Part shown: positions 3,736-61,800 of the stretch, piece by piece
How positions within the stretch are numbered: the first letter of the stretch is position 1
How the letters are laid out: every line of letters begins with the position of its first letter
Assembly (NCBI GenBank): GCA_950106755.1
Contig: OX467083.1
Coordinates: 49,676,555 to 49,740,554, forward strand
DNA length: 64,000 bases
Source: Climacium dendroides
Lineage: Eukaryota; Streptophyta; Bryopsida; Hypnales; Climaciaceae
Reading direction: 5' to 3'
The notes under the pieces: model-generated
Seen by the model: the letters and a program-made list of their open reading frames with translations, nothing else
What the model was told of the DNA's origin: nothing
Databases searched by the model: none
Made by a program: the position numbers and the translations under genes

Positions 3736-3749
3736 TCAATCGATATCAT

Positions 3750-7670: not shown

Positions 7671-7674
7671 TTTG

Positions 7675-13254: not shown

Positions 13255-13275
13255 AATGCTCATATTCTTGTAGTG
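13255..13275. mobile_element. Right terminus of the large CACTA element
   Basis: The sequence ends in ATTCTTGTAGTG, the complement of CACTACAAGAAT, a canonical CACTA terminus. It is preceded for about 550 bp by repeated ATGACTA/TAGTCAT words that would serve as subterminal repeats. The following bases CAA would be the target duplication. No matching left end (CACTACAAGAA) was found in the window. Confidence 0.7.
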
Positions 13276-13276
13276 C

Positions 13277-15005: not shown

Positions 15006-15049
15006 AACCACTTTAAAGCATAACAAAGTGACTCTAAAGATAAAACCCA

Positions 15050-39637: not shown

Positions 39638-41396
39638 AAACATAATGTGGTTTCCTAGGCTCAAAATTGAGACTCCATGCATGGTATTACCGGAATGGAC
39701 ATGGGCATACCTGAGCTTCAAATCTAGACTCTTAAGACAAATTTCCATCCTGATCGGAATCACAAATGAATTTTCAAGTTTTTCAGTCGGATATGCCATT
39801 GCCAAGTTCCACCATGCTTTCACATCTACATGCGTAGGGAGAAACTACATTTTAGGATAGCTTTGCCTTGTTGACAAACAAAAAGGAATAGAAAGCTTCA
39901 AGTCCAATGTTGAAAATAGTTTTACAGAAATCTTTGGGTTTGGGGTAATTTACATCTTAGGAAAATTATCTTTAACCCTAAACTTGTCTCTCCAGAAATT
40001 TTGTTGATCAATAGTTTTGATTTTCTTCTTCCAACTATTGCACACTTCCATGTAGAATTCTTATTTTCTTAAGTCTTTTATGAAAGATTTGATTGATTCT
40101 AGGTGCATGGAAATCCAAGTTAATGCACCAAAGAATCTTGGTATTTGTCCTTATCGTATTAGTTTGGTTTCACAAAATCTAAAAGTGAAGAAGTTTCCAA
40201 CTTAATCCTTAAAGGATAAACTAGTGACCATGAAAATCATCCATTTTGGTATTGTGTGAATCATTGGTTTAAAAAAATTCAAAAGAACTCATTGGAAGTT
40301 AAACTAATGTACAAGACTTCCCTTTTTCACATGAAATTTGGAAGATGAATAGTTGCACTTCTATCCCACATGAAAAGATTCTTTGTCATTTATTAGACAA
40401 AAAATGGCCACAACATTGTTTATGGATTAATGGACAAAAATATGCAACACCTTTTTTAAACATGAAATTCTTCCAATCAACATATATTGCAATGTAGTCC
40501 AATGTTTTGCTTTTTGATCTTGTTGAGGTGATTGTTCCTTCCTTGATCGACTTTACATACAATATAATACAAACATATACACAAAATCTATGATTGTTCT
40601 TCCATTTCTCGCAAATAAATCCTCCACCAAATCATTGGGCCATCACAAAGGTAATGAATTGGGGCCATCACATGAATTGATTTTTCTTTTAGAATAAGTA
40701 TAGTATAATTCCACTAAATTTCACAATATCACTTAAATTGATTTTTCTTTTAAAATATATAGTAGAACTAGTCATTGGATTGAAGAAAAAATTGAGTTGC
40801 TTATAATTTTTTCATAGAATAGAAAATTTTCAATCTCAATGGTAAGGAAGATTAAAAATTCCAACCCCTATCAAATGGTGTTTTCTTTTAAATAATGAAT
40901 ATCAAGATAAAAAAATAAACTTCATATATTGATTACAATAGGAAAGATCTTATATGCCCACATGTTAAAATAAAGACCTCATATTATTTACTTCACTCAT
41001 CAAAATAATTAGAACCAATCCAAGGTTTTTGTTTACACATAATTCTATCCAACCATATCTACACAAAAACATACTAAAAAAATTCATTTGTCTAATCTTA
41101 ATTCATGAACAAAAAAACTTATGACTATCATACTATTAAAATCACAAGGTCTTCCGTAATATCACAAATGCTACTATTAATACTAGGAGCTCATGCTTGC
41201 TTTGCTACACATTCATTGTATCACATATTAGTAAAAATTTGATATATTTGAATAGAATGCATGATAATGATTTCAATAAGTCTTTAAAATAATTATTTTA
41301 ATTATTTTATTAAAAAAATTCCAATCATACATACATAGAAATCATATTTTCACACAATGTGATACTACTGAATTAGAGTAGCAGTTCACATTCACC
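39638..41396. other. AT-rich intergenic region
   Basis: 3' flank of the thioesterase gene, then AT-rich sequence up to the hAT insertion point. No gene or clear repeat was recognised. Confidence 0.5.
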
Positions 41397-41700
41397 CAGG
41401 GTTGTCTCGGACGTACGTCCATCACGAAATCGCGTCCAAAATCCGGACGTCCGGACGTCCGTCGTCCAAGCGTCATGGACGCGGCCGGACTGTGGTCGGT
41501 CGGCGTCCAGCGGTTGGTCGGACGGTCATGGGAGCGGTCGGGCATGACGTCGCAGCGGTCGGGCGGACCGCCAGTCCGCAGGTTCGGGAGCGGACGGACC
41601 ATCCGATCGAATGCTGTTCGCAGGTTCGGGATAGGTTCGCGTCATCCGGGGTAGATTCGGGAAGACAAGTTTTAGGTTTGGGCGCGGACGGCTATATGAG
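41397..41700 (+). promoter_or_regulatory. Left subterminal GC-rich repeat region and promoter of the RING gene
   Basis: Short repeats of GGACGTCC near the end, then CGGTCGG/GGTCGGACGG-type words up to about 41610 and GTTCGGGA words after that. A TATATGAG box at 41693 lies about 210 bp before the ATG at 41902. Confidence 0.6.
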
Positions 41701-41901
41701 GGGACGGCCAAGGCATTTTTCCTCACTTCAACTCTCCTCCTTGGGAAACAACACCACATCAGATGTGCTACTATTGCCTCACCGCGCCAGTTGCTCCTAT
41801 GTGGTAGAGAGTTGGGGTCATACATCTTTGATTACACCGGAGGGGTTTTGAATCGGTCATTTACACACGGTTGAAGAGAAGAATCAAGGCATCAAGTAGC
41901 T

Positions 41902-44900
41902 ATGGAAGAAAAGGGCGGCATTAAAGGTGAAAGCAGCAAGAGATCGAAACAAAAAGGAGCTCGTCACGAGCTCCGTCTTGACATTTTAAAGGATGAGAAC
42001 ATTTTAGCAGAGCCTGAGTGGGAGAAGGTGGTCGATGAATATTGGACTTCCAAGTTGTGCAAGAAATATGTGAAGATGTATCACATTGGGAAGTTGTGGC
42101 CTGAAGAATTACATGTTGGTCATACTCGGGAGTTTTCTTTTAAACCCGCAAGTTGTCTCAGCCCTCATTTTGTCCATCGTTCCGTAGAGGTGTGGCGGGC
42201 TCTCTTTGGGGACAAATTGATGAGCAAGGGTAGAATTAACTACACCATAGCAAGCATGGTGTATACATAATTGAAGTTGGCTCGCAAGGTGGATTGGAGT
42301 ATGTACCCCGGGACAGTAGAAACACCGCTTGTGCTTCCTGATGGCCAGAAAGATATTCCCAATACGTTTGTTTCAAAGGGACAAGTCCTTCAAATGGTTG
42401 AAGGCAATGCTACTCTACAGCACAACACAGAAGAAAAACGTGTTTCTATTCAAAACGAAGTGCAAAACATGAAAGACAAAGGGGAAAACAAGGAGGAGCG
42501 CCCCCTTGAAAGTAGCAAAATGAATGCCACATCAGCGGATCTTACGAATCAATCTGACATTTCACTTCAACCCGAAGTGGAAAATACAGAAGGTAATGGA
42601 GGAGGAAGTATGACGCTAGAACCAGATACCGTATGTAATACTACAAAAGCTTTAGCGTCTTCTTCGAAGGGTGTGGAACGAGTCGTGCTTGACACTCTAC
42701 CGATGTTTCTGAGCCCTTTACCAATTGCATCAAGCGCGAAGGGAGAATCTGGTATTTTCAAGGTGCCATCTCATCCATCAAAACAAGGATCAACGTTGAA
42801 GACATTGGAGTGCAAAGAAGAAGTTCCCTCAGAAGAGATGGACAAGGCAATTGCTAGAATCACTCGTCTTCTAGACAGTGATGCCCTTATGGACATCAGT
42901 ACCAGGACTACAGATGAAGAAATTAACAGAAGTCTAAGTCCAGTTTGGAGTCCAATGCATGAAGTGCCACCTTCCCAAAACATGAATGATGAGAACCTAC
43001 AGAAGGCTGAAATGGACTCTCGGGAACCGGGCGTTCTTAACAATGGCGAAGAGACCCCAAAGACGGAGGAGAATCCAATCCTAACGTTCTTGGGTTCAGA
43101 GGATCTAAAGACTTTATCGATGATGCCTCCGCTACAAGAAATAGAGCACTTACTACAATGTTCTCTTAAATGGAAGACTTTTGAAATTCAAGAAGTTCAT
43201 CCTTCTGCAAATGAAGAGGGTACAACAAACGAAGGAGGCACGATAGATGAAGGGCAAACCTCAACCCCGTACAACCGAGTATGGAAGTTCGGTGAACTGT
43301 TCAAGATTGCCTACTCTCTATCATGTATAGCTAAACTTGTAGCTGTTATGACACCTGCCCTCACACAAATAGCTGAAGAATTTATGAGCATGACACCAGA
43401 GATACTGGAGGGTGCCGTGGCCTTCAGAAAATTCATTGAATTTGCAGATAAGCTCCAAGAAGAGAAGGTGGAAAATCTCAAGGCTGTGGTTGAGCTTCAA
43501 ACACAAAACGAGGAGCTCATGAAGGTCAATTATGACAAAGAAGATCATGATCGCCTGAAGGTCAAGTTCGACAAATTGGATAAGCATTGCTCTATGGTGT
43601 TCTGGGATAAAGACCATGAAGACTTGAGAGATATGTGTTTTAGTCTTCAAAAAGAAGTTGAGACTTTAAAGCTCTCGAATGGGACGTTGGAGTCCCAAAA
43701 CCAGAAGTTGGTTTTGCAATTGAAGACATGTGAGGACAATTTACAATGGCATCGGGAGATGTTGAAGACATTACAAAACAACAAGTCATCTGAACATTGC
43801 AAGGACGGAGCAAGCCTCTTGGAGGCAAGTCAACCAACTCAAGAAAGCGATCAATTTTCGCTTCCTCTTGACAAGGGCAAAGTTGTGGACGAGACTGTAG
43901 AAGTCGTTATGGCCATTGAGAGCCCTAAAGTTGTGCCTCCACTCTCATTAGAAGTTGCTTGCACGCAAACGGTGAATCATGAAGTCCAAGAATTAAGGCA
44001 ACAATTGGACTTGGCAATTCAAGCAAAGAATGACGCGGAGTCTTCACTGCGGAGAATGGAACACATACAAATACTATACGATATCCTTCCAATGAAGACC
44101 GGGGATCTACAGTGGGTGCTGTGGGCAAGGCACCTACAACAACAATCCGGTTTATGCTCTCAACTCATGAGGGGGCTCTTGAAGTATGCAATGCAGTCGG
44201 ACGAATCGTTGAGCAACGTGCAGTCTTCTCACCTGCGTTTGAAAGAGAAGTTCGACGCAGAATTAAAGGATCCCGAAGTGTGCATTATAGTTTGGAGAAA
44301 CATGGATAGAATGTTCGAGCGGTTGAATCACGGGAGAACCTATGAATCAGACAACATCAATTGGGCGTTGGAAGCGGAAGAAGGATGGGTTCCTCACAAC
44401 ACATTGTCTGCTCATATTGTTCAACATGAGAAGCAGCTTATACCTGGAAGTGATCCCAATGTTCCTTTGATGAAGGAAAAGTGTTCTCTTTGCCAATATC
44501 GTTTTGGGCCTGAAGGAGGTCTAACTTTGGGTCAATGTGGCCACTCTTTTCATATTCTTTGCATCCAAAGAGCAGCACAATATTCCGCCCGTTGCCCCAA
44601 CTGTCGTACTCCTTTGAATGCAAGGTTTTATGAAATGCTAGGAATATTGCATTCTATGGCATCAGGTCATGAATTCAACTGGTGGAACCTTCCACTAGAC
44701 CAAGCGCCACACAAATTCCAAAATCATTTGCATTGGGGAAAACCAATGGTATGGCTACCAAACGAAGGGATGCATTCATTATACATGGATCCTCAAGACA
44801 AGGATGAGTACTTCTGGATGACGCGGGACTTGGAAGTGGAATTGCGTGCCTTCGGGATCCCGGATAACGATGCAAGAGAAATGTTTTGTCGTAGCATGGG

Positions 44901-45549
44901 GGGGCACTAGAGCACGCAACACCAAAAATTCTTCCGATTTCCTGATAAGGAATGGAAGAAAGAAGGGCCAAATGACCCTTTTGTAGAAGTGGAGTCTGAT
45001 CCTAGAGTCACAAAGCAGTACGAGGGGTACAATTTCGATTTGGTCGGGCAGGCCCGCATCTTAGCGAAGTTGGAAGAAGCAGCTAAGGTTCGTTGCATGT
45101 TGGACTTGAACACGAAAGCAATGACAGGGCATAAGATGGAAGAGATTGCTCGGGCTTTCAATAAACGGATGGATGATATTATCACCAAGTGGAGGAAGTA
45201 TCTAGGGGGCGAACCTCCAATAGCTGATAAAGGTGTACCAGCTTGGTATTACGTGCAGAGCGAAGATAAAGTCATCCAGTACCTCGAAGACTTAGTAGAT
45301 GCCGCTCTGAGGACTTTAAACGCCCATGAAGTGGAGTTGTCTCCGAAGCGGAGGAATAAACGGAGAGTTGAAGAAGAGGATGACCACTCTCCAGAAACTA
45401 AAAGACTATTTGAGAGGGTTGACATGGAAGTACAAACTAGAGAAGGACCCAGTGGTGGTGAGGCGATACCTCGTCGCAAAAGCAGAAGACTCATGGCGAA
45501 GGAGGGGACATCTCGTGCTGCAGAAGAACATAGTAGTACTGAAAACTAA
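41902..45549 (+). pseudogene. Cargo gene 1: BED-like/coiled-coil/RING-H2 protein, one frame with two stops
   Basis: A single frame of about 1,215 codons is broken only by TAA at 42268-42270 and TAG at 44908-44910. The N-terminal 125 residues contain CKKYVKMYHIGKLWPEEL, closely related to the zinc-finger block of cargo gene 3 (53625-54821), and INYTIASMVYT before the first stop. A long Glu/Ser/Thr-rich linker follows, then coiled coil (about codons 495-650 of the frame). Next comes a RING-H2 finger near codons 860-900: CSLC, then CGHSFHILC, then CPNC, the C3H2C3 spacing of E3 ubiquitin ligases. The part after TAG is basic/acidic and unrecognised. Both stops are one C-to-T change from Gln codons. 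It is either recently inactivated or read in pieces; the largest uninterrupted piece (42271-44910) still encodes the RING finger. Confidence 0.75.
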
Positions 45550-45920
45550 TAGGGAAATGTTTCGTTTCCTACTCTACATCTATTATATTAGTACTAGTAG
45601 AAAATAAATAGCTTGTGGGGATTTTAATTAGTAGTTTTCTCTACCAAAAATTATTGTACTTAGGCTATCGTGTTCATCATAGCTTCTTCATAATGTACAT
45701 CGAATCATAGGTGTATGCCACAAAAGTATGTTTTGATTTCCTTCACTTTACATGTATATCTATATATACATATTTTGTATTCTCTCTCTTTCTTTATATA
45801 TATAGTTTTTTTTTGGCATATAAATTGAAGAATATGTCTATTTTTTCATTTATTTATTTATTTCATTGTTTGAATTCAATTCAATATGTTCTATTTCAGA
45901 CTCAATGTTATGCCTCATTT
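45550..45920. other. AT-rich spacer between cargo gene 1 and the transposase array
   Basis: Downstream flank of cargo gene 1, with TATA-type simple repeats around 45755-45810. No gene. Confidence 0.5.
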
Positions 45921-45924
45921 GCTT

Positions 45925-46135
45925 GCTCGGCCCTTTGGGGTCGGTCGGCCCTGTGGGGTCGGTCGGCCCTTTGAGGTCGGCCGGCCTGTAGGGTCGGTCG
46001 GCCCCGTCCGCCCAGACCGCGCGGTCAGCGTCGTCCGCTGATTTCTCACGACCGTTGTACTCAGCCTACGGACTGTGCAACGGTCAATTCTTATTTATGA
46101 AGCAAAGTGCGGACTGGGCAGAGTATAAGAGCAAG
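45925..46135 (+). promoter_or_regulatory. CGGTCGG array and promoter of the hAT transposase
   Basis: Four to five units of about 17-18 bp based on TCGGTCGGCCCTNTGGGG (45928-46010), then CCGTCCGC and CGGTCA words. A TATAAGA box at 46124 lies about 270 bp before the ATG at 46395. The array resembles those before the other genes of the element. Confidence 0.6.
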
Positions 46136-46394
46136 GTTCAGGTCATTTGCAAGCACTCCTGAGAAGCTGAACGCTAAGATTCCCAAGGGCTACGAGCTGC
46201 AAATTGAAAAATTTGTATCCGTTGCTTGGTAATGTATAGTTCAGTGGACAGGGGGGCTTTGGTTTACAAGGCTTCATACACAAATTTTTTTTCGTACATG
46301 TGATTGGGTGCAGGAATGAACGTACTATGCGTTTGAAATCGAAGGCCGATATTTGAAGTTTCAAATTGGATCCGCAAGCTATTCATTTTTAAAA

Positions 46395-49300
46395 ATGAGT
46401 ACAAATTCTCATCTCTGGTATACCATTCCATCCCCCAGCAAAGTGAAGTGTAAGGCATGTGGGCTTGAGTTTGTAAATCAGAAATGTCGCATGTTGAGCC
46501 ACTTGGGATACGAAGGCAAAAATGGCAGGCGCAACTCAGAAATAAGCCTATGTCCACGATTGACATCGGATGTTAAGTCTCTTTTCCTTCGTTGTGATGG
46601 GATGTTTCCATCCAAATCAATCATTGAAAATGTAGACGGTCGGAACGCACTGATGGTTCTAGGCAATACCTCAAACGGAAGGGAGTCGCCATGTTCAACA
46701 CAAGAAGACTCGTGCACAGCACCGGAACAAGCAGCTCTTTCAGCTTCAAGGGTGATTCCTAGTGCCCAAACATCAAGTGACCAACGACCTACACCTTCTT
46801 CTGTAACTAGGCCTCAAAAACAAAGCCGATTAGCAGATGGATTTGAAGAAGCTGAAAGACGGAAGTTGAATATGTTGTGGGCTAATGTCTTCTATTCGGC
46901 AAACATACCATTCGCGGTAGCTCGGACTGAAGCATTCAAAAAAGCCGTCATGAGAACGGCTGACTTCAAAAGGCCATATAGTCCTCCATCGTATCAAGCT
47001 CTACGAACTAAATTGCTAGACGAAGCAAAGGCAGATCTTGAGGTGAAGTTGCATAAGAGGACCGAGGATAGTATCCGAAAGTTTGGTGCAACATTGTCTA
47101 TTGACGGGTGGTCCTCGGTTACGAATCGGCCATTGGTAAATGTCATGCTTGTATCTTCCGCAAGGGAGCAATTTCTGGGATCAGTGGACACAAGTGGAAA
47201 TGAAAAGAATGCAGAGTACTTGGCTTCTATTTTGGATGAATTCATACAGAAGGTGGGGCCTCAAAATGTGGTGCAAATAACAATGGACAATGCTCCTGTG
47301 AAACCCAGAGCGTGTGAGATTATAACCGACAAATATCCTCACATTTTTTTCCAAGGTTGTGTAGTTCATGCCTTAAATTTGTTGCTCAAAGATTGGGGAA
47401 AGGAAACATGGGTGGAGACGGTAGTAACAGACGCCTGAGCGGTTCTTAAGTTCTTTAGAAAGCGACACATGCCACTTGCAATATTCCGGAGTTACGAGAA
47501 AGAGTACAGCTTGTTGATGCCGGGGGAAACAAGATTCGCCTCCAATTACATGGTGCTTTACCGATTGTTGAAGGTAAAGGGTGCTTTAAAACAGTGTGTA
47601 ACAGACCCTCGTTGGCAAAAATATGCGAGGACATTGAGGAAGAAGAAGAATGGTGGCGAGGAGTCTACAAATGCGACAAAGATAATTAACGATGACCACT
47701 TTTTGAGGCGTTGCACCAATTTCATTCAGTTGCTGGACCCTGTGGTACATGGCCTACATGATTTAGATGCAAAGACGCCATGCACAGGCAAGGTTTTGCA
47801 TATCATGAGGAAAATACGGAAGCACGTGGCGGATTTGGAGAATTCGCCTTTTAAACTAAGTTCGGAACTTGCAAAGCCATTGAGGGCATCATTCCAACAA
47901 CGATGGGAAATGGTGGAGACCGATATTCAATATGCAGGAGCTCTTCTAAATCCCTACTTGCTTCACGACAAAGAACTAGCAGACGATGATGAGGCGATTG
48001 ACGCATGCAAGCGTGTCCTCATGCGAATTTGTAAGCGTGGAGAGTACGCTGACGTCGTGAAAGAATTCATGGCTTTTCGACATAAAGAACCGCTTTTTCA
48101 CAATATGTTGAACCCAAGCGAGTCCAAATTATCGGCACATGCTAGGTGGGATTTTGAAAGTGTTTGTGGAAAGCTCATTGCTCCAATTGCAAGGAGAATT
48201 TTAGGGCAATCGGTCTCTTCCTCTTCATACGAGCGAAATTGGAGTAGCTATTCCTTTGTTCATAATAAGGCTCGAAACAAGTTGAAAACAAAGAGAGCCA
48301 TGGATTTGGTGTATGTGTATACCAATTCCAGAGTCCTCGCTGCTTCAAAGGAGAACGATGAGAAGATGTGGTACCACGAGAATGCGGAGTCAGAGGAATC
48401 CGAGGGGCTTATGGAGGATGACGAAAGTAGTGATCATGATGTCGAGGAAGAACATCTTCCACGACGTGGAAATGAGGAGGTCAATGACGACAGAGGGGAA
48501 TCGGAATTGGAACCAGAAACAAGTGATGACAACCTCAAATCCGATGAAGAAGAGGATCTGAACGAGGACACGTACGCTTTTCGTGGTAGACCGTCACAAA
48601 GACGAAATGAGTATGATGATGACATGATTGACTTGGGTACAAATAACCGAGATGAATTTGAATTTTTAGAAGACAAAGATCTACCTTCTATAGCGAGATT
48701 TGTAGATGGGAGCCGACTTCTAAACAGCCATACCATTTTGGCAAACAAGGAAGACACCATTGTGGAAAAGGCGGTTCAGAACGGGATATCAGTTACAAGA
48801 GACCAAACTTTACAAGCAAATGAAGTGATTGAACGTGAAAGGTCTCCATCCATACCATTAGGCCAACCTGGAGAAAATGACAAACTACATTCTTGGGAGA
48901 AAATGAATGCGGACAAAACAAGCTTCAAATTTGGAGAAAAATTGGTTGATAAGAGCATCGAGGGACCGAGCTCCCTAAGCCTTAAACCGCTAGAGGTATT
49001 GGACAAGGGGGATTCAGGTTCGAAAGAGTGCAGAAGTCCGAACATGGTCCACAATGGCCAAGGCAGAAATGACAACATGCAGAGGTCGCAACGTCCAACG
49101 AATAACGATCCTCCACCCGCTCCACACTCATTGTTGAACGGTGGAAGTGGTAGTACTACTCTGGGGGGTTCAGCGAGTTTTCTACCTACATTACAAGCTT
49201 CCAACATTCAAGAAGAAACTGTGAAGCGGAAATTCACTACTTTAGAGTGTACTAGTGATGGAGAAGATGAGACATTGGAATCAATGTTCAAGAGCATAGC

Positions 49301-49790
49301 AAGTCGCCCACCACAATGTTCTCAAAGACTAGAGGACATGAAACTGCGATCTCTGAATGAAATAACAGCGGTCGCTTGCCAACGGAGGCAACAGGCAAAA
49401 GAAGCAATGGTAGAAGAATCCGCTAAACCTAAGAAAAAACGAGTGATGGAGCCATTTGCTATCTCCCCAAGGAAGAAAGTACATGGAGGAAAAAAAACCT
49501 TGGATACACGACTATCCCTTCCAACTCTTCCCACAAGGAAAGGATGATTGGCCGGCGGTCTTCGAGAATGCATCCTCAGTAAGAATTTCTTACGGAGGAA
49601 GGATGATCCAAACATAGGCAAGGGGAAGAAAGCTTCTACATCTACGGAAATCAGAGGAAAAGAGAAAGAAAAAGTATTGGCTTCATCAGATGATGAAGAC
49701 AATACTTTCGACGATGAAGATGACGGATGGATATCAAGAGACTATAGTAGTGGGGCAAAGGTAAAAGGAGATAGTGATTATCATCCTTAG
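46395..49790 (+). pseudogene. hAT transposase (BED finger, DUF659, hAT dimerisation), one frame with two stops
   Basis: Cuts and pastes the element; nuclear DNA-binding enzyme. One frame is broken only by TGA at 47436-47438 and 49545-49547. In order: an N-terminal BED-type finger (VKCKACGLEFVNQKCRMLSHL); the DUF659 catalytic core (TLSIDGWSSVTNRPLVNVM, QNVVQITMDNAP, FQGCVVHALNLLLKDWG) with the expected DGW and DNA acidic residues; PGETRFASNYMVL after the first stop; and the C-terminal dimerisation domain (WDFESVCGKLIAPIARRIL, SSSYERNWSSYSFVHNKARNKL). A long acidic, low-complexity C-terminal tail follows (codons about 690 on). ATG 46395 (MSTNSHLWY) is chosen because it just precedes the BED finger. 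Both stops could arise from CGA Arg by C-to-T change. The first stop splits the catalytic core, so this copy is probably inactive unless read through. Confidence 0.9.
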
Positions 49791-52700
49791 GAATTGAATC
49801 TTACATTCTTAGAATGGGTTAGATTAGAATACGTTACATAGATAGTTCTTCAAATCTTTATGATTTGAATTTGGAAGACTTTATGAATGCAGGAGAAATG
49901 AGGTTTGACATTTGACACGCATTGCTCTATAATAGGAATTTGCGTGTTTATTTTGAAAAATGTAATAAACCTTTTTTATTCATTATCTTTGGTTGAATGG
50001 TTGAATAGAAAATTGAAGAAGTCTTCACTGCGTGTATTTTGGTTATTCATTCTCCATGTACAAAACAAATAAATCAAATAATTTCTTGGAAAGCGTTAGA
50101 AATAATGAACCTCAGAAAGAAAGCTTGCATAGAAACTGAAATCTGTAAATACCAAATTACAAAATTGAAGATCGTGGTTGGCAGAATGGCAGGGGGGGCA
50201 CAACGGCAACACTGCAGCAGACTCTTCGACCGCAGCGGACGGGGCCGACCGATGGTTCGCAATGGACTGTCCTACCGCGCGAATGGGACGACCGCGCCGG
50301 ACGGGGCCGACCGATGGTCCACAACGGACTGTCCAACTGCGCGGATCGGTCGACCGCAGCGGCCGCATAAAGGTGACCCAAATGATTAAGAGGTCATCTG
50401 CCATTCGGGAAACTGGGACTTACTGTGATTCTTGTCTTCAGGTCTCAGGTCTGAGGTTCAATCACTTGAATTCATGCAGTGGTATGAGGCTTGGTTTCAA
50501 CTTCCAACAACCAATTCCCATTTCTCAAAAATGGGTGATCTATTCATTCTTTGTAGAAAAGGGGGGGGATGATTGGACGAATGAATTGATCCTCTTGCTT
50601 AAGTAGATGTTCCTATAAGGTTGGAAGAAGTGAAAGTTGAATTCCGTTCAAAGATTTTCATATCACTATTATGATTCAGAAGTCTCCGACCGGAAGGCAA
50701 AAATCATCCCTTCCAGCCTTCAAGGAACATCAATACCATATTACCATGACATTTTTTTTTGGAGGGGGGGGCGGGAATTTGGTTTAGCAAACTGTACAAA
50801 TTATACATTTATACATAATTTGGGAATGAACAATAACAAAGCTAAAGCCCTTGCCAACGAATCTTGAATGAAACCTACCACTAGAAAATGCAAAGAGTAA
50901 ATTACTTAAATATTTTTCGATTTCAGGGCTACAGTTTTTCACGGCCAGTTGGCTATGTCACCATGTAGCATTCTTTACAGAATTACAAATTTACAATGCA
51001 TATATTTATATGATCAAACTATAAATGGAACCGATTTTAAATGAAAACAAGGTTTCATGTAGCAGAGAAAGCTCTATGTGAAATCCCTACACAAGTACAT
51101 TTGTATTCTTTGTAATTTGAAACCTCCAACCAAATTGTTCCGCAAAATATTTAATCCAAGCTGGAAAGCTCAAATGAATGAAGAAACACCTATACTATTT
51201 TCTATCTCACCTTGCATGTTGATTTGTTTGTTGGCCAAAAATTCTGCATTTTAGATCTACATGACTCAAGATTTATTAATAAGGTATTTATAACTATTTT
51301 ACAGCTTATCTAATTTCTTGGCAATTTTAATATTTGGGATTTTTAGGACTATTTAGTACCCGAATAAACAAATTTGAATCTGAGATTTGAAGAAGATGAT
51401 TTTGTAGCAAACGTAAAGGAATCCTAAAAATATTGAATTTTATGTGGTGTACAAGTTCACTAAATGAACTTTTTTATTAATGACTTTTGAAACGCGTAAT
51501 GTTCTTTGAATGGTTCTTTTCATAAATGACCATCTTCAGAAAATTGTTACAAATGGGATTTTTATAATATTTGTATAGTTTTTCCCTTTTTTTTTTAATT
51601 ACACGTTAGAGCATATATTTTCTTGAAATTGGAACTATTCTAGAACTTTCTCCTACTTATAGAATTTTTTGGTGGTTTTTTTTTTTGATAATTGCCTTCA
51701 TCTTGAAAGTGAATACATTGGACATTACTTGGACATATTTCTTCAATGTTTTTTGAATATTTTTCTTTTAAATTTTGAAAGTATTCTACAAAAAAATCAT
51801 GAGTATTGGACGAAGCACAACAAAATTATCAAATGTTTCTTGCAGTCACCTAGATCCATTAGAAATTAGAAAAAATTTAGAATTTTCATTGTATTTTATT
51901 TACATTTCAATGTCAAAAGGCTCCCAATTCTATATTTGGAATGATGAACTAAGTGACTAGGAAGATGTTTCATCTAAATCAAGATGTTTTATCCAAAATG
52001 ATTCTGGAGAGTACAAACCTTCAATGACCAATTTGATGAAACGGAGGTAACCAATAAACCAATATGTACACAAAGAATAGAAGCAAAAATATACAAGATT
52101 TAGAATATTATTCTTTTGTTAAATTACTAACAACAACTTCAAGGGGCTCTAACTCTAATCCCTCAAGTTGACTTCACATAAATACCTAAATATGACCTAT
52201 AAACAGAAACCGAATTATTTAATGCATTATTGCATTGAGATTTGTAACTTTAAAGGACAGTTTGTTTAATTGTTTAGATGCAATTTTATGAAATGGAATT
52301 GGAGTTGGAGATGGAATAAGGTCATTCTATATTTAACTAATAACTATAGTGAAAAGTGATTGAATGAGTATTTTACCATAGTTTGTAACTTTGTATAATC
52401 ATACTTTCTTAGTTTTTGTTGGATTTTATTCGCAATTGAAGGGTGATTTTAAGAAATACTCATAGTATTTTAGAGTCATGTATTGAGTGCTTGCAAGTTG
52501 CAATGTCTTTTTTTATAACTTTTCATACTTGATTTTTTTTGAGTTTACTAAAGTTTTGACTACTGAAAGCAATACTTTTACTCTTTTAGAAACAAGCTTT
52601 TACGAGTTCTGAAGTTTACAGTTCAGATTTTAAGTATTTCACAAAGAATCATTATTTTATGATTATATGCATTAGAAAATGACTACAAACTTCACTTTTC

Positions 52701-53060
52701 TTCAATTACATATTTTTAAAATTCACCATGAAAAAATGAAAATTTAGTCTCTCTCCCTCTATATATATTTATAGTTTGTACTCAAAGTACTTATAAGATG
52801 TAAGAATAAATCAATTGCAAACATATTTGATGAAGAGAAATATCGAAATTCTAAAAGTGAGTAGTCATCAGAATTACGGGTAGGATTCATGGTTTTTAGG
52901 GTATAGGGTTTAGGGTTTAGGGCATGGAGTTATTTTTCAAGTTTCACATTGAAGGGGCAAAATTCCCGCCGTCAGTTTTCAAAGTTTTTATGTCCTTACC
53001 TGAAGTTCATGACGAACTAATGGTCTAACAAGCTGCCAGCTCACTCCTTTGGATTCTCTA
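49791..53060. other. Non-coding spacer inside the hAT element with one CGG-type array
   Basis: AT-rich apart from 50195-50370, where two units of about 75 bp (GACGGGGCCGACCGATGGT...CGGACTGTCC) repeat; this is another CGGTCGG-family array, ending in CGCATAAAGG. No gene follows it on either strand, so it may be an orphan promoter or binding array. From 50880 to 53060 I see only AT-rich sequence and a short TTTAGGG telomere-like run at 52893-52921. Confidence 0.5.
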
Positions 53061-53089
53061 CTCACAAATAACTAAGTTTGGAGAATCCA

Positions 53090-53430
53090 CAGGTCGTGGG
53101 TTGCTTGGCCGTCCACTCGGCGGACACTGCGCCGACCAAATGGTCGGCAAAAGCAGCAACCCGTTTGCTGAGCGGACGGGCTGACAGCCGATCGGTCAGA
53201 ACGACGGCTGATCGGTCGGGGTAGACGAAGTCCGTCCGTCCGCCCATCTACCCATCCATTCGGCGGACGGCCCCACGGCCAAGCGGTCGGTGTGGCCGTC
53301 CGACTCGGCCGTCTGTACGTCTCTGTCGACCGTAGGATGGGAGATGCGGATTCACGCTGTCCGTCCGATCTTGCCATCCGACCCTCAAGCCGACAGCGAC
53401 GTCCGCCTCGGCGGTCGGTATAAAAAGCGG
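53090..53430 (+). promoter_or_regulatory. CGGTCGG/CCGTCCG array and promoter of cargo gene 3
   Basis: Dense CGGTCGG, GCGGACGG and CCGTCCG words from 53095, ending in a strong TATAAAAAG box at 53419-53427, about 200 bp before the ATG at 53625. Confidence 0.65.
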
Positions 53431-53624
53431 AGCGGACGGCTCATTCCGCACAATTGTTTCCCTTGCGGAGTGGGTGATCCAGCGGCTATTGGTCTCTGTG
53501 CGCCCCTTCCGCCTTGGTGTGTGAACAATTGTGAATGAATGAGTGGTATTCACTAATTATTATAATCTGAAACCACTACACATTAATCATTCTAACATTG
53601 AGGTCATTTATAGAGAAGGGTACT

Positions 53625-54821
53625 ATGCCTCGCAAAGGAATTCCGGTTCTTTCCGGTTCTTCAAAGAAAAGTTCGAAGGGGAAACCACAAGAACTAGATT
53701 GGGATGTTTACTTCGATGAATTCAATGTGGCAAAGGAGGGGTGGGAGTACGAGTCCGACAAAGTGTGGACTTGTACAATGTGCAAGAAATATGTGACCAT
53801 GTCACACATAGCCAAACTGTGGCCAGCAAATGACAGTTTGGAGAAGCAAGTGAGACGGTGGGAAGGCCCTATGAAGACGTGTACGAGTAGATACTTTGTA
53901 GAGAGATACGAAGAAATTTAGGCAGCTTCAAATCTAGGTCCCTCGAAGCCTACCATCATGAACTATTCTACCATGGCAATAGTTTGGGCAGAGATTGTAC
54001 TCCAGAAAGACGTTGACTAGCGTACAGTTATAGGGATGAATAAAGAGACGAAGATGACGTGTCACTCAGCTGTGGTGTTCACTAACTGGCGTGGCGAAAG
54101 TGATTGCATGCCGGCTTGGTCGAACCGAGGTCAATTTGGGTGCCCAAGTTGGTCTATGCGGGATGCAAAGGACAGTGATGCTGACAATGATGAAGAACCA
54201 GCTGAACAGTTGCCACCTCCACCTCCACCTCCAGAGAGGCACGAACGCCGAGAAGAACGCGAAGACATAGAATACGAGAATCAAATGCGGGAAGCATTGA
54301 GGAGGAGTGTCGAGGATCAAGGCCGACCTCGTGGATATCACACTTCACCTCGTCGTGAATGTGATGTACATGGCTCGTGACATGGAGGAAGTAGTTCACA
54401 CTATAGCAACAACCCTCGAGATGGTGGTCCAAACGTAGAAGGAGGCTATAGAACTACGACCTATACGGACTACGGTGGTCTTTCACATGGCAGCCCTCAA
54501 AGTTACCCAGGAACAAGGAGACCTCATGAAAACACCAGTTATACAGACTATGGTGGTTCAGAACAAGGCGGCTCGCGAAATTATCCAGGAACAGGAGGAC
54601 ATGATTTGTATGGGCCTCATGGAAGTTCTTACTACACTGGTTCAAGTCATGGAGGGACTGGAGGCTCACATGAATATGCTTCAGTTCCACCTCCAACTTT
54701 TGGAGGTCCTTATTACGAAAATTATGGACAAGGGCGACAATCAAGCGGATATGGGCCATATGGTGGCTCCGGTTCTACGCCTCAAAGTCAAAATCATGAT
54801 AGTAGTTCTGATTCTGAATGA
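53625..54821 (+). pseudogene. Cargo gene 3: BED-like zinc finger and Gly/Ser/Tyr-rich protein, one frame with three stops
   Basis: One frame of about 399 codons is broken by TAG at 53919-53921, TAG at about 54018-54020 and TGA at 54378-54380. Start MPRKGIPVLSG; an earlier TTG at 53598 is not a plausible start. WTCTMCKKYVTMSHIAKLWP is a BED-type finger (W, CxxC, H) homologous to the N-terminus of cargo gene 1, and a following NYSTMAIVWAEIVLQKD block also aligns with it. A Pro run (PPPPPPP) and an acidic/arginine segment follow. The last 140 residues are Gly/Ser/Tyr-rich with GGS, SYYTG and YTDYGG repeats, a low-complexity, phase-separation-like composition. Gln (CAG) or Arg (CGA) codons could have given all three stops by C-to-T change. 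Function unknown. Confidence 0.65.
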
Positions 54822-56477
54822 AGTATAGTGTTATTTTGTAGAAAAATACAAGGTGCCATTATGTAGTTATGGGCTTTGTTTTTTAATGTGGTTTCAAGTG
54901 TAATGCATTGTCAATTTGTCATTTTCCATTTGGAAACAATGCAATAGTTGTAGGAATGCAAGTATATTCGAACAAGTGAGATGTATGAAGAACTTGTTTT
55001 AGCCCCCAAAACGAAAGTGGTACAGGCTATAAGACTATTTTATAATATAATAAAATTATTTGCTTTTTACCTTGTAGAGTAAGTAGAGTTCCATACTATC
55101 ACTCCAATATGAATGGTTAATTGTTGCAAGTGTTGAGTATGTGAATGATGTGGTGTAATGTATTTGAACATCGGAAGTTACGTATTTTGGTCATTTGTAA
55201 TGAATGCGTACTGAAAACCATGAAAGTTACGTGCTTGTATATAGAATTGCAAATGTACGGTTGTTTTTTGAGACAAAATGGTGTGACCAAATCATTTTTA
55301 TAAAACCTTTGTCGAATAACTCAACACCTTTTGGTATGCACCAAAAGAAATTTCATTATGTAATTAGCTTTGATGTTGTACTTCCCAAATGCTATTTTAA
55401 GTATTGGACCTTCACGACAACAATTCAAGACTTATTCTTCTTCAGGTATTTAACACTAGAAGAGTAAAAACAACAAGATATCTTGTTGTTGAAATTCATT
55501 GATGAAATGAATTCGAGCTCTCTGGATATTGGATAGGCAAGAATATAATGTACAAGTAAAAAATTAAAAATTAAAACAAGTTGCAATTATTTTCCTACCT
55601 ACTATGACCTACTAGGCTACTACCTAGTGCAGTAGTGCCTACACTCCCCCCCGTCCCTTGTTTTGAGCAATTTAGGTCATAACTTCTATTCGCGGTCACT
55701 GATTGTGGAAAAAATGAGGTCTCCATTATCCCATATAGCTTAATAAGCTTATCAATTTTTCCATCTTCAGAAAAAGTTTCAAAAAATCACGACAAAATTT
55801 CAAGTTGTAAGTACCTACCTAATAACCCTAAACCCTCGAAGGGACCCTAAGCCCTTTAGAAGTGAACCTTCAACTCACAATTAGGCACTCACATACAATC
55901 ATACATTCATACACGATGTTTCCTTCGGTCCTTTAGTTGTCCTCCATCGTCATATCAATTATAGAGACATAGAGGTAAGTAAACGCTTACCATTTTTTAT
56001 ATTGTCATTGACATTATTATAATGAACATCTTCAATCACATTTACTATACCACACAAATGAAGACAAGGACTTGTCAACCTAACAATCAATGAATCATTG
56101 AATCATCAATCATCAATTAAAAATTGAATGAATAAAGAATTGCAAATTATTTCATATAATGATTTCGAGATTTCCAATTTTCCATCCAAACATACGATGA
56201 CAAATGGCGTAAAGACTTCCAAGTTCTCCAAAATCATTGTGAATTAAAACATGCTCATTGATTACAAATACTGAGATGCACCTTGCTGTAAAACAGCATT
56301 CACAATCAATCCAATCATTGGTGATGAAACTGAGGTATATCATCCGTATATATTGTACTACTATGTAATTGACATGTAACTTAGTATATGTCTTTGCCTC
56401 TATGAATAGTGCATACTATAAACACCTATAGGCTATAGTTAATTACTTATATATGATATATTAATATCATTAAAGAC
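54822..56477. other. Spacer between convergent cargo genes 3 and 4
   Basis: AT-rich 3' flanks of the two convergent genes. A short telomere-like CCCTAAACCCT run lies near 55825-55855. No gene was recognised. Confidence 0.5.
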
Positions 56478-57974
56478 TTAAACTACAGCTCCAAAGTGGC
56501 GGAAGTGTTCATCCGGTATAGGCCAATGAAACGAAGAAGTAAATTGCGAAATCACTTGCGCCAAACTACTATGGCCATCGGGACCATCTTCGCAAAGTCT
56601 CCCCAAATACACTTGAAAGACTTGTGCTAAGTCGTGATGCGAGTACAACACATGTTTTTTGCTTCCACGACCTTGTAAACCGTAGTATGTCTCTGACATA
56701 CATGTACTGTTGATTCTCTTCGCTATTTGACCAACAACAAATTCTTCGAACTTAATGGTAAGTACGGGTATGTTCTCCACATCTGCATCTCTTCGATGTA
56801 CGTATGTAATCTTTGGATCGATCCACCACCTCCTCCTCAGAACTTCGTCCCGATCACTTGTTGATGTGAATGTATACAATGACTTCATGGGCTCTGTACT
56901 AGTCGTAGTCATCCCCCAATCGCAAATTCCAATGAAAACCTGCGACTCGTCTTCCGGGAAATGGAACATGATGTTGTCTGGAGAAATGTCGTTGTGAAGA
57001 TGTCCGGCACCATGTACCGCATTCATAATATGCAGCAGTGCCCAAGCAAGCTCCGTATGCTTTGCTCTCCATCGCTTTAGACGATGAGCACGAATGACCT
57101 CCTCGTTGCTAATTTTGGGGTCACACATAATGCGTATGGCGATATTGTCTGGATAATCATTATCCATTCTCAACATTTCACGCAAAGTACCACCATTCCA
57201 CCACAATGAATAGCCTTCGTTCCGATTTGTGTGGACTGCAACGAAGCGTATGACTCCATCATGCGGAATCCGCACCGCCATCGATTCAGTTTGGTGTTCC
57301 ATCTTTGCAAGCTCAGGTCGTCGACCCTCTTGGAGAGACATCTTTGTTGCAAATTCCCAATGTGGTTGAAGTTCAGAGCACCCTTCGATTCGCACCCTAC
57401 GAATTGTAGCATAGCCTCCGCGTAGGACAATATTATCTTGTAGAATCACCCTTGCGGTTCCCGGGAGCGCTATTAAATGGCAAAATACAACTCGCATGTT
57501 TACTCTCCCTTCGTGAGTTGTCCACCAACTCATAAATCCACCTCTATTTCATCTTGAAGCAAATGGTCTCATCCGACTCACGAACATGTCCACTTTTGTA
57601 ATCACGTGCGTGAAGGCTTCATCATCAATGCGATGAACCTTACCAGATTTTTCGACGGTCCCTTTCGCATTCCATAGTGCATCATGCGCCCATTTGTCCA
57701 ACCAACTAGTGAAATCCTTCTTTTCCATTTCTTGATACCACCCTCCCACCCTCAACGCTTCATGCATCATGTCCTTTATATCGCCTTTGAACTTCTCAAT
57801 GCCCTCCTCTTGATAACAAACATACTTAGAGTCAAGAGACATGGTAGTTTCTCTCTCATAGAATTCAACAATGCATTTTCTCAAAAATGCGGTACAAGTG
57901 TGCGAGGGGTTGTCCATGATGTCGGCTTCAGTAGATTCCTCCACAAACTTCGTTTTCTTCTTCGCCCTTGGCAT
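56478..57974 (-). pseudogene. Cargo gene 4: protein-kinase-like protein, one frame with one stop
   Basis: One minus-strand frame starts at ATG 57974 (MPRAKKKTKF, a basic start like that of cargo gene 3) and ends at 56478, broken by TGA at 57549-57551. The first 142 codons are unrecognised. After the stop the protein has features of a eukaryotic kinase fold: LRGGYATIRRVRI (glycine-loop position), FATKMS (Lys position), ELAWALLHIMNAVHGAGHLHNDISPDNIMF (catalytic loop HND...N in place of HRD) and ICDWGMTTT (DWG in place of DFG). The metal-binding Asn and Asp are kept, so activity is not excluded. The C-terminal lobe is diverged. Position and GC-rich upstream array (58130-58825) tie it to the element. 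The TGA could come from CGA. Confidence 0.7.
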
Positions 57975-58129
57975 CTTGATGAATGTCGCACGATTCGAGA
58001 AAAAAAATGGCAAGGGTCCCCCCAAGATTTCACCTTTACCCTCCCAAGGAGAGGAGGCAATAGGGCCCAAAGGCACTAAGCTTCTCCGCTCTCTCTTGCA
58101 AGCAAGGGGGAAGGAAAAAGTGAGAGGCG

Positions 58130-58825
58130 GACGGCCCGACCGCCTCTTTTGTATGAGGCGGACGGCCATCCCGTCCGCCCAATCTCAGCCGTCCGTCCTA
58201 GCGGACGGCCGATCGGGCGCCCCGTCGGGTCCGTCCGATTGGCCGTCCAATCGAACTGCCGACCGGTCGGACGGGCCACCCGATCAGCCGACCGATCGGC
58301 CGGCCCCGTCGGCCCCGTCCGTCCGTCCGCTCGATCGGCCCCGTCCGACCCGTCCGACCCGTCCGTCCGTGCGGTCAGCCCCGACCGCCCCGTGGTCCGC
58401 GTTCGTCCGGTCGGTCGGCCCCGTCCGCCCCGTGCTCTGCGTCCGTCCGCTCGATCGGCCCCGTCGGCCCCGTCCGTCCGTCCGCTCGATCGGCCCCGTC
58501 CGACCCGTCCGTCCGTGCGGTCAGCCCCGACCGCCCCGTGGTCCGCGTCCGTCCGGTCGGTCGGCCCCGTCCGCCCCGTGCTCTGTGTCCGTCCGCTCGG
58601 TCTGCCCCGTCTGCCCCATCCTCGCCGTCCGTCCACTCGGTCTGCCCCGTTTGCCCCATCCTCGCCGTCCGACCGCTCGGTCGGCTCACTGAACCGGCCG
58701 ACCGCCCGTCCACTGGATGGACGCGAGTCCGAAATTTCTATGTCCCCGGACGCTCGGAAATCCGCGGACGCGGACGTTGGACGTCCGTCCGGACGTCCGG
58801 GCGTCCCAGCATCCGTGCAACCCTG
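58130..58825. repeat. Right subterminal CCGTCCG/CGGTCGG array
   Basis: About 700 bp made almost wholly of GTCCGTCCGCTCGGTCGGCC-like units. A higher-order unit of about 150 bp is duplicated (58325 and 58480), and a 40-bp unit (CTCGGTCTGCCCCGTCTGCC...) repeats twice near 58590-58670. The last 90 bp change to GGACGTCC-type words like those at the left end. It lies upstream of cargo gene 4 (minus strand). Confidence 0.85.
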
Positions 58826-61800
58826 CATTCACCTCTGTAATATCTTTTTTTACAAAGGATGATATTATAGAAATAATATAGTCGTTGCAATCAAGGTGAT
58901 ATTAAAGAGGATTAATATGGTAATATTAAAAGGGTAGCAATTCCATTGCTTTTCTTGGCTTTATACTTCTTTTGCATTTCTATGATTTTGTGCTTTTGTG
59001 AACTTTGAATTAAATTGTTCATGAAGCTTTTGAGATTTACAAGTTCTTCCTTTAAATTCTTCTATTTGCGTTGCCATTGTTTGTAACAATTGAGTCAAAT
59101 TTCTAATGCATTCTAATGTATGTGTATCTTTTACGATATTCATCATTGCATTTTAGTAATTTTTATTTGAATATTTATTGAAATTCTTGCTCTTCATTCT
59201 ATCTAATACATAAAAATTCTAATGAAATTCTAATGATGAGTGTGCGTGTGAATGCGTAGCATAGCAAACACCAACCACTAGTTGACTTATAAATTTAGAA
59301 TTCTATGAAATTTGGGTGCCTACTAGATATGATTGTATTGCACTTCTCCAAAGAAGTACTAAAAATTCAAAAAATTTAAAGCCTATACAGCTTACCCCAA
59401 AACATGATTGTCTCAATTTGGTTTACAAGAAATTTTAGGAGTTAAATGGATGGAAAATTTTTGAAAGGACTCAAAGTCTCAAAATTCCAAAAATAATAAT
59501 TAGGGTGTTGAAACATGTCAACTTAACCATTACAATTCTATAACTACACTTACCAAAAATCATTTGAAATTTACCATTTTTAGTGCAAAGTGTAAAATTC
59601 CTACACGTAAATATCTAACCAAAGGATCTTGTATTGAAAAGTATTGAGATGTGTGAAAAAATTTCTAAAAATTTTGACTATTACATTGGAAGAATTTCAT
59701 GTTTAAAGTGAAAATAAACATATATTTTACACATTTTCATTCTAGGTTATCACATTTTGAATCCTCTTAACTAAATTTTGAACTACAAATTTTGATTCTA
59801 AGTTTTTTTTTGTGCTACAATGGATTTTGATTTAAATAGGCAAAGTCTTTTAATAATCTTGATTGTTTAGGCGTAAGTGCATTCATGAATTACAAGGTGT
59901 ATGCTATATGTTGAACATCATAGACAATCAACAAAGACCAAGACAATAGAGCATAAAGTGGCTTAGTCCTTATATAAACATGTGATCTAGTTGGATTGAA
60001 AATACAATACATCTTTCAAAACTTATATATTGTATATACACAATAAGATCTATTTTTATCCTTCATAGCATATGTATAGAATATGAATGTAGGATTGTCT
60101 ACAATATTATATATGAAACATTTTTAAAATAGAAGTAAAAATTGTAGAAGGAGAACTAATAGATACAATGTACTACAATAGTCGAGACAATAGTACTATG
60201 ATAAAAGGCAAATTTGTCATTTTTGTCTAGCATGACATTAATATGTAGAGCATATTTGCAAAAATAAAATATAGAGAGTAGAAAAACAATTAGAATAGGG
60301 TAGCCATCTCAACTAAACTAGACCTACACCTTGATGTTATTTGCTAAAAACTAGATCTCAATTGGTTGACACATGGGTGCAACATGCCTTCCTAGACTTT
60401 GGCTCAAGAAAATCACAGCATTGATTTAGAGGATTGTCACATGGTGCCTTGAGAAAGACATGTCTAGCCTTTTAAATGTTCAACTCTTGCCACTCTTTGT
60501 ACAAGTAGAGAATTTTGCTCATAAGTTTTTCAAGTCTAATACAAAGAAGTCGCACAACTAAGGATGTTCTTTGGTTGTCTAGACTAAGTTTTTTGAAAAC
60601 TACATCAACAATAATCTTTGGATCTTGCATTGTTTTGGTTTTGTTCACCATGCTATCAACAATATTATATTTTTCTTCAACACCAACACAATCATAGTCT
60701 AAGAGATACTTGTCTACATCCTATAAGGTATTTTGAAATGGTTGTGACTACATAACTCCCTCATTGAATGATTGGAACAATGGGAGAACCTTGTTCATGC
60801 CAAGCGAAGGACTAGTCTCTCTTACAATGAAGTTGTTAGTGAGCTCTAAATTAATGTAGAATGTGGAACACCTTCATGGTGTGCTTGCACATCATTTCTT
60901 GTAAGTCTACTAGATAGTCAAATGAGACCAATTCCAAGTTCGGGCCATTGATAGTCTAAGCCTATGGATGGTAGTTCATTAATGCAATAAGAACAAATGT
61001 CCTCACCATCTAAAAAAATGTGCACAAAACTATCTGGTATTTCCGTGCATGGACAATATATTATGAAGAGCTTGCTCTGTATTGCATACCAATAGTATAT
61101 AATAATGTTGCCAATAAGGTAGTAGATGAGCCAATCAACTCTATGTCCATCAAAATGTTGACAAAACAATTTGAGAATCCTCTTCAAGTTTATATAGTAT
61201 GATTCAATTGCCTTATTTGTATTCTACTTATAATGAGGATTTATGGGATTGCTAATGTCCTCCATCTATTATTTTTATTCCACCAATGTTTCTTCATGTA
61301 TTTCATGAACCTTGCAACATTTGAATGAATATTTGCATTATGCAAATATGACAACTATTCATTAGCCCCCAAATGCCCAAGGCCATTTTTGAGCTTTTAG
61401 GAATTTGCTCTAAATTGAACAAAAAACCAACATTTTTGATAAGTTGTATAATTTTTTTTGGAATTGCAACCATACAAAATCAAACTAGACATGTTAGAGA
61501 TCACATAGGAAAAGAAAATACAACAATATCACTTATGAATTGAAAGATTATAATGTTTGATCATGTGGGTGTTAAAACAACAAAAGTGATTTCAAGTCTT
61601 TCAATCCTCTTTTCACATGTCAAATCTAAAAAGTTGATCACTAAAAAAATATGAAATTAAAGGATCTAACATGCATAACTCCAATCAATTCATAGCTTCT
61701 CAAAATCTACTCTAAATTTTTTTTAAATGAATTTCTAATGATATTTTTTCTCCAAGATGTGGTATATTTGAGGCTCATTTCCAAGAGCCTTCAACTCTAC

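Follow-up and report, generated by a model that had tools for sequence, protein, structure and literature searches.

Elements of the hAT superfamily are textbook minimal DNA transposons, and in plants they are usually under about 5 kb long and hold the transposase as their single gene. A stretch of 64,000 nucleotides from the moss Climacium dendroides (contig OX467083.1; hereafter the window) raises the question of how such a transposase comes to lie within a segment of 17,429 bp (41397-58825), flanked by the 8-bp duplication CATTCACC and shared with genes for a RING protein, a C3HC-like/Gly-rich protein and a protein kinase. The segment almost certainly represents a decayed member of a high-copy hAT family, about 17 kb in length, in which four genes are mobilized together as a unit, and it is very probable that this structural description and selective constraint on the genes hold together.

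The first-pass annotation of the window had proposed a 17.4-kb hAT element with matching ends and an 8-bp repeat, and its placement of both ends, of the duplication and of the subterminal motif proved correct (Table 1). The terminal inverted repeats of hAT elements are short and begin with CA(G)GG; here, the left repeat CAGGGTTG and the right repeat CAACCCTG occur once each in the window, the subterminal motif GGACGTCC is found at 41445, 41453, 58779 and 58791, and CATTCACC is seen at four further places in the window besides the two flanking sites. Exact 8-bp duplications adjoining exact 8-bp inverted ends, whatever their sequence, form four pairs in the window at separations of 100-25,000 bp, compared with a mean of 0.45 in 20 shuffles. 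A CAGGG start is seen in the element pair only, and one of the other three pairs (25283-49867) happens to span the transposase too. A chance origin of the ends is excluded because other genomic copies exist, rather than because of this pair count.

These copies were sought in the host assembly (412.6 Mb in 123 contigs), the best 40-80 of 306 to 1117 candidates being scored per search. With the left 404 bp as query, 52 matches were obtained in the best 40 of 394 candidates, and the right 166 bp returned 40 matches in the best 40 of 306. In the plus-strand copies that were read, homology starts at the terminal repeat and the flanks differ between copies, and comparison of flanks at 30 left-end and 30 right-end loci places the change at the outer ends. 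CAGGGTTG or CAACCCTG, identical or with one change, is present at 28 of the 30 left-end loci and at all 30 right-end loci; the other two left-end loci (L032 and L033) begin inside the element, the match being split there. Pairs of ends on the same contig and in the same orientation number 13, the window included, and a further copy (copy B) adds one. Thirteen of these 14 pairs, all except a 48.8-kb pair on contig C16, were read on both flanks, and perfect 8-bp duplications flank 11 of the 13, including the window copy, as the first-pass annotation had anticipated. The left end reads T instead of C at its first base in copy B and in C39:234628. Seven of the 11 copies with perfect duplications span 17.0-20.5 kb; two (C1:5164028-5213157 and C39:2116 kb-2163477) have ends 47-49 kb apart and presumably hold nested insertions, and the remaining two (C38:23519179 and C1:17823867), 6.5-6.7 kb long, have presumably suffered internal deletions.

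Copies read at length indicate that the four genes travel together. Copy A (L034 and L035) is colinear with element positions 1-17122 and copy B (L036 and L037) with positions 2-16959, at 95-96%, and in both all four genes are aligned at full length and in the same order, as expected from the first-pass claim that the modules form one element. Copy A, fetched as 20 kb ending short of the right end, has an insertion of about 2.4 kb, and the alignments also show extra length at the 62-bp tandem repeats; the terminal array of copy B could be aligned to the end at 71-75%. In the best-scored samples, window counted, a convergent kinase lies 14.3-20.5 kb downstream of 23 of 40 left ends, and a kinase reads inward within 1.5 kb at 25 of 40 right ends; misses are no proof of absence, because the kinase search scored the best 80 of 782 candidates. 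A composite origin, in which a small hAT element (45.9-50.4 kb) would be accompanied by other elements or host genes between two unrelated ends, could draw on the GC-rich arrays on both sides of the transposase (45939-46032 and 50236-50307), arranged as the subterminal repeats of a smaller element might be. It is nonetheless made vanishingly unlikely by the recurrence of the same segment, in the same order and with different flanks, in copies A and B, by the change of flanks at outer ends that in most perfect-duplication copies lie the full element length apart, and by the joint presence of the four genes in a second subfamily (copy C, below). No copies of the 45.9-50.4 kb portion alone with duplications of its own were seen, no search by its own ends having been made. 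The genomic copies hence contradict both separate smaller elements and an assignment of the additional genes to single-copy flanking DNA.

The gene content foreseen by the first-pass annotation, one hAT transposase and three more modules, was borne out, with one change of label. The window copy is broken, its frames holding two (RING), two (transposase), three (C3HC-like/Gly-rich) and one (kinase) internal stops; each gene otherwise reads as a single open frame, and either alternative frame on the coding strand contains between 15 and 85 stops. The window transposase matches DUF659 (E 5e-36) and, under the cutoff, Dimer_Tnp_hAT (E 0.0045, 17.2 bits against 21.4), and both domains are matched by all 18 aligned transposase homologues (E 0.01 or better). 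Acidic catalytic residues and CxxH and ERxxS-type motifs characterize hAT transposases, and the 28 D, C, H, E and W columns that are alike in 17 or 18 of the 18 homologues, three of which differ in the window copy, appear to supply them. The RING protein comprises an N-terminal C3HC-like domain, a middle region that looks like coiled coil in the translation read by eye, the RING-H2 finger (zf-RING_2 E 3e-8, 34.2 bits against a cutoff of 27.3) and a C-terminal region, and is a possible ubiquitin ligase; no homologues were found in the protein database at E 0.001 among 7997 candidates selected with words drawn from its first 500 residues only. The Gly-rich protein had been labeled BED. Its N-terminus matches zf-C3HC instead, at the cutoff (22.1 and 22.3 bits in two cuts, against 22.2), and zf-BED gave no match there at E up to 10 with HMMER filters, which drop most weak matches. 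At the N-terminus, the RING and C3HC-like/Gly-rich proteins carry homologous domains, and four remaining gene pieces have no Pfam match. The window kinase matches Pkinase below the cutoff (E 1e-5), and 23 of 25 rows of its family alignment do so at E 0.01 or better. Its relatives combine a helical N-terminal domain of about 140 residues with a eukaryotic protein-kinase fold (model of the relative P0065) that retains the catalytic Lys, His-x-Asp, Asn and Asp-x-Gly; compared by sequence with solved structures, the kinase profile gave weak CaMKII and FUS3 matches.

A second, diverged subfamily allows selection on these genes to be gauged. Copy C (C38:2404000-2423999, L068 and L069, reverse strand read) holds kinase, C3HC-like/Gly-rich, RING and transposase genes within about 17.7 kb; its terminal stretches are 72-73% alike to those of the window element, relative to which the RING-transposase block and the kinase are reversed with respect to the termini. 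Its kinase is an open frame of 504 aa, and a scored transposase lies 10.2-12.4 kb away in four of 13 kinases of this 504-aa class. A convergent kinase within 25 kb was found for none of the 41 scored transposases, the second subfamily having the other arrangement. Ratios of nonsynonymous to synonymous divergence (dN/dS) between the window copy and copy C, a single pair with dS near 1 (0.93-1.34 over the four genes), are 0.30 for the RING gene (1151 codons), 0.29 for the transposase (1105 codons), 0.20 for the C3HC-like/Gly-rich gene (317 codons) and 0.29 for the kinase (486 codons), and decay in both copies would, if anything, raise these values. On this comparison of sequences, similar constraint on all four genes is indicated. 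The additional genes, which the first-pass annotation had described as cargo, are indeed present and copied along, but since they look constrained like the transposase the term undersells them, and they look like core genes of the family rather than a loose load.

The four genes also share a putative regulatory signature. Arrays of CGGACG/GGTCGG motifs are found at the termini and at all four promoters in both the window copy and copy C. Of 135 matches to the motif set in the window, 114 fall within the element; with a slightly different set, the element contains five clusters of at least three matches, and a single small cluster (3 matches, 26328-26388) lies elsewhere in the window. In each of the four promoter stretches, preselected for high GC content, the motifs outnumber those in every one of 500 dinucleotide shuffles of that stretch, and the motif count of an orphan stretch at 50.2 kb was reached by one of 500. 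No gene was recognized after this orphan array (50227-50362), which could be a terminal array left over from inversion of the RING-transposase block. Six clusters are present in copy C, one at each terminus and one ahead of each gene; that on the left starts in the flank, before the terminal repeat.

Decay within the family is widespread and has a distinct pattern. Copies of the RING and kinase genes are mostly 95.6-97.9% identical to those of the window. Stops fall at 22 different codons in 28 RING copies and at 14 different codons in 26 kinase copies, and 10 RING copies, in the part read, and 15 kinase copies are without a stop; several copies also carry single-base or 4-base insertions or deletions. 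Six RING and four kinase stop codons are recurrent, one RING codon in five copies, and the window RING stop at 42268 is found in one other copy; this recurrence may reflect repeated mutation or the spread of defective copies. Minor C-to-T or G-to-A states in the RING gene amount to 5.6% per site at CG, 5.0% at CHG and 1.7% at CHH, other changes to 0-0.8%. In plants, methylation of CG and CHG cytosines leaves such an excess of C-to-T changes in these two contexts, and the decay of the family probably reflects methylation of this type. Not all copies are dead: in the larger kinase sample (best 80 of 782) 32 of 80 copies have no stop, and seven of 41 scored transposases, the window's not among them, have a single TAG, taken as the normal end because all 41 rows have a TAG. 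Within the family, ratios of nonsynonymous to synonymous polymorphism (pN/pS) are 0.57 for RING (29 rows) and 0.53 for the kinase (25 rows), computed leaving out alignments under 250 codons and, for RING, L041; copies A and B are counted in addition to L007 and L005, loci at which the same RING ends lie. Nonsynonymous-to-synonymous ratios among C-to-T and G-to-A singletons are 1.65 (RING) and 1.72 (kinase), the corresponding expectations being 1.67 and 1.75 for CG, 3.5 and 4.0 for CHG and about 2.2 for all sites together. Because C-to-T and G-to-A changes dominate, the within-family pN/pS is not read as selection, although some residual constraint may be present.

These data bear on two alternative accounts of the additional genes. 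Plant DNA transposons often carry pieces of host genes, and the additional genes might be such pieces, captured by a hAT element through Pack-type transduplication and kept as functionless passengers, a reading to which the largely C-to-T character of within-family variation, with little sign of selection, would be congenial. Capture is very unlikely given full-length genes that each lie behind the element's own promoter array, constraint between subfamilies equal to that of the transposase, the persistence of many kinase copies without stops, and the occurrence of all four genes in two subfamilies and of transposase and RING together on a contig filed under another organism (L001, below). Alternatively, the additional proteins might serve the moss in signaling or protein turnover, the element spreading partly thereby. 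Kinases and RING proteins are typical host-signaling protein types and constraint is indicated; the decay of many copies through methylation-type changes and the construction of the promoters from the element's own terminal motif make such a host benefit quite unlikely.

The interpretation of the segment as a constrained four-gene hAT element, together with the mechanism proposed below, has several observations weighing against it, beyond the sampled nature of the searches and the single pair behind the dN/dS values. Among the copies with both flanks read, the duplication of C37:9757906 agrees at six of eight positions and C39:29065847 has no match. Comparison of the flanks of copy C, which lies outside the 13, revealed no matching duplication; its RING gene has no stop and one frame change, and stops are present in its C3HC-like/Gly-rich frame (one) and transposase frame (three, one of them probably the normal end). 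Some stops recur in several copies, and some defective copies may therefore have multiplied. Lastly, the N-terminal domain shared by two of the proteins is no clean zinc finger, one of two cysteines being lost in the RING proteins and in L001.

A mechanism can be proposed that would unite these features. The transposase would cut and paste the element at its CAGGG ends, making the 8-bp duplications, and the N-terminal domain common to the RING and C3HC-like/Gly-rich proteins would supposedly bind the CGGACG/GGTCGG arrays, one set of element proteins thereby switching on all four promoters and marking the ends. At the arrays, chromatin or silencing factors would be ubiquitinated by the RING protein, and the kinase would modify a protein of the element or a factor of the host; copies would thereby escape methylation long enough to move, and the system would be a hAT-based counterpart of the anti-silencing by VANC in VANDAL elements. 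The first-pass suggestion that the additional genes may act on host silencing or signaling is in line with this scheme. By analogy and from sequence features, an array-targeted, VANC-like regulatory or anti-silencing mechanism is possible, if short of likely. A self-contained, co-regulated four-gene hAT programme, in which two proteins with a shared DNA-binding domain read one motif at promoters and ends, host silencing is remodeled or evaded at these sites by means of a RING ligase and a kinase, and the whole persists across subfamilies and moss species despite gene-order shuffling, is doubtful; if true, it would mean that a plant DNA transposon had evolved sequence-specific anti-silencing independently for a second time, by way of ubiquitin and phosphorylation. 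The additional proteins might instead act in transposition and not on silencing, the kinase tuning the transposase and the RING protein limiting its amount. Constraint equal to that of the transposase and arrays at termini as well as promoters fit this proposal, against which nothing direct stands, although other hAT elements move with the transposase alone; it, too, is a possibility that falls well below even odds.

Past insertion events can also be traced. The first-pass annotation had called for an empty site, and the joined flanks of two copies supply a match across the junction in a sibling element. Joined with one CCGCCGGG, the flanks of the copy at C41:19963876 yield an unbroken 992-bp alignment, at 96.2%, to the transposase promoter region of copy C, and those of copy B align across the junction with the kinase promoter region of copy C (90% over query 88-700, query 1-141 being aligned as a separate piece). 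Both copies therefore lie inside GC arrays of sibling elements. The match records past insertion only, not excision or transposition activity. With C41:19963876 and C37:6525617 both in sibling arrays, a preference for the family's own arrays is possible. A candidate empty site in the window itself, through a duplicated H+-pyrophosphatase gene piece, was rejected, the duplicate stopping short of the insertion.

Relatives are also found beyond this genome. Kinase relatives comprise 71 proteins at E 0.001 or better, two named from the moss Ceratodon purpureus, and one representing a 126-sequence cluster with a contig of 110 Mb. Searches of genome_contigs gave transposase relatives at three loci (L001, L002 and L003) and kinase relatives at none; those of viral_contigs gave no relatives of the kinase, RING protein or transposase. 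L001 (6291 bp, filed under a cyanobacterial metagenome-assembled genome and in our view misbinned plant DNA) carries a related transposase, of which the C-terminal half is present, and after it an intact RING protein of 855 aa that has the N-terminal domain and RING region of the window's (RING-H2 36.9 bits). One CGGACGG lies just before a TATA box upstream of its RING gene; the array at the end of the contig is not significant, its five motif matches comparing with 2.7 in shuffles, of which 51 in 500 reach that number. L002 and L003 show no match to the additional genes except a weak kinase-relative match in L002 (E 0.004), which was set aside. The protein P0069, a plant-like transposon gene, is filed under a "Bacilli bacterium" metagenome-assembled genome, and both it and L001 are likely contamination in public bins. 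A link between a hAT protein (P0007) and a kinase (P0113), for which the longest contig is 27,639 bases in either case, was taken as suggestive only, two coincidences at short lengths (3215 and 2127) also occurring.

Table 1. Features of the element in the window and target-site duplications of other copies (contig:position)
Feature	Position	Strand	Remarks
Target-site duplication, left	41389-41396	no strand	CATTCACC
Terminal inverted repeat, left	41397-41404	+	CAGGGTTG; homology to other genomic copies begins here
Left terminal and RING promoter array	41408-41702		17 matches of a six-hexamer set; array ends next to TATA-like box, 209 bp before ATG
RING gene	41902-45549	+	1216 codons including end; in-frame stops 42268, 44908
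RING-H2 finger	44479-44607	+	residues 737-779 of the open reading frame at 42271
Transposase promoter array	45939-46032		10 matches; TATA-like box 271 bp before ATG
hAT transposase	46395-49790	+	DUF659 and Dimer_Tnp_hAT; frame open from 46353; in-frame stops 47436, 49545
Orphan tandem array 3' of transposase	50227-50362		62-bp unit; 6 motif matches at 50236-50307
C3HC-like/Gly-rich promoter array	53109-53434		22 matches; TATA-like box 206 bp before ATG
C3HC-like/Gly-rich gene	53625-54821	+	in-frame stops 53919, 54018, 54378; the BED/Gly-rich protein of the first-pass annotation
Protein-kinase gene	56478-57974	-	499 codons including end; one in-frame stop, 57551
Right terminal and kinase promoter array	58128-58794		85 matches; TATA-like box 180 bp before ATG
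Terminal inverted repeat, right	58818-58825	-	CAACCCTG
Target-site duplication, right	58826-58833	no strand	CATTCACC
Duplication, copy B	C37:6525617		TCGTCCGC
Duplication	C1:5164028		TAGAAATC
Duplication	C3:14440292		GACACCAC
Duplication	C38:30083265		GTGTTTAA
Duplication	C41:19963876		CCGCCGGG
Duplication	C39:234628		ATCGTGTG
Duplication	C1:13063474		CTTAAAAT
Duplication	C39:2116 kb		AGGCCGTG
Duplication	C38:23519179		GCGCCGCC
Duplication	C1:17823867		TCAATACC

The surroundings of the element in the window contain further mobile DNA and host sequence. Pieces of an H+-pyrophosphatase gene, introns being deduced, lie at 26600-30519 and 62534-64000, with 29053-30519 duplicated in inverted orientation at 64000-62534 (99.86% identical), and the element is therefore placed in the spacer between two gene copies. 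The proteins at 703-2652 and 17347-17787 (minus strand) have a common domain (47% over 130 aa) with no Pfam match and probably represent another transposon protein family, a relative of which, judging from its flanks, seems to host the copy C insertion; a suspected relationship of the RING protein to the 703-2652 frame was rejected, comparison showing no link. CACTA/En-Spm transposase pieces are found at 4303-5766 (minus strand) and 8786-9385, matching Transposase_21 and, below cutoff, Transposase_24, and a 150-bp palindrome at 4136-4285. The open reading frame at 10153-11601, in which a long region of disordered appearance precedes an NLI-interacting-factor-like phosphatase domain, is possibly another transposon-borne enzyme.

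The retention of three additional genes, copied along with the transposase, is unusual for a plant hAT and hints at help in living with or evading the host. A hAT family that keeps three more constrained genes behind its own terminal motif would show that hATs build multi-gene programmes. The kinase, the RING ligase and the two candidate array-readers offer an entry to transposon management of silencing outside the flowering plants, and the CG and CHG decay of the same elements opens the contest with methylation to study in one family. Among the literature matches listed, which for some searches represent a minor share of all matching papers and come largely from outside subscription papers and bioRxiv, there is no multi-gene hAT and no kinase- or RING-bearing hAT from a moss.

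Several known systems invite comparison. Like Ac and Tam3, the element has 8-bp duplications, short CAGGG inverted ends and a transposase with DUF659 and Dimer_Tnp_hAT; unlike them, it holds four genes rather than one and has arrays at every promoter. Pack-type plant transposons are likewise DNA transposons with more than a transposase, but theirs are truncated host gene pieces without constraint, whereas the genes here are full-length, constrained on the one pair compared (dN/dS 0.20-0.30), furnished with element-type promoters and present in two subfamilies. VANDAL elements are of Mutator type, in contrast to the hAT transposase of the element, and alpha-kinases form a family different from Pkinase. 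In size, the element is about 17 kb long, whereas Ac is given as 4.6 kb (PMC3260210). The VANC-bearing VANDAL elements of Arabidopsis (PMC5735166, PMC10398659) resemble the element in having several genes, tandem-repeated short noncoding motifs and a plausible sequence-specific element protein. VANC proteins carry DUF1985/DUF287 (PMC5735166), and no such domain is among the Pfam matches of the scanned pieces of the four genes; the tandem-motif resemblance is a works-like feature only. Lastly, the fungal DNA transposons that bear TET/JBP genes (PMC12730594) also carry extra genes, some being hAT elements (hAT7) and one, IS3EU, having an alpha-kinase gene. The element is not a new kind, because these fungal hAT and other DNA transposons with additional genes precede it; they differ from it in that the extra protein is a TET/JBP dioxygenase instead of RING and C3HC-like proteins, and hAT7 makes 7-bp rather than 8-bp duplications.

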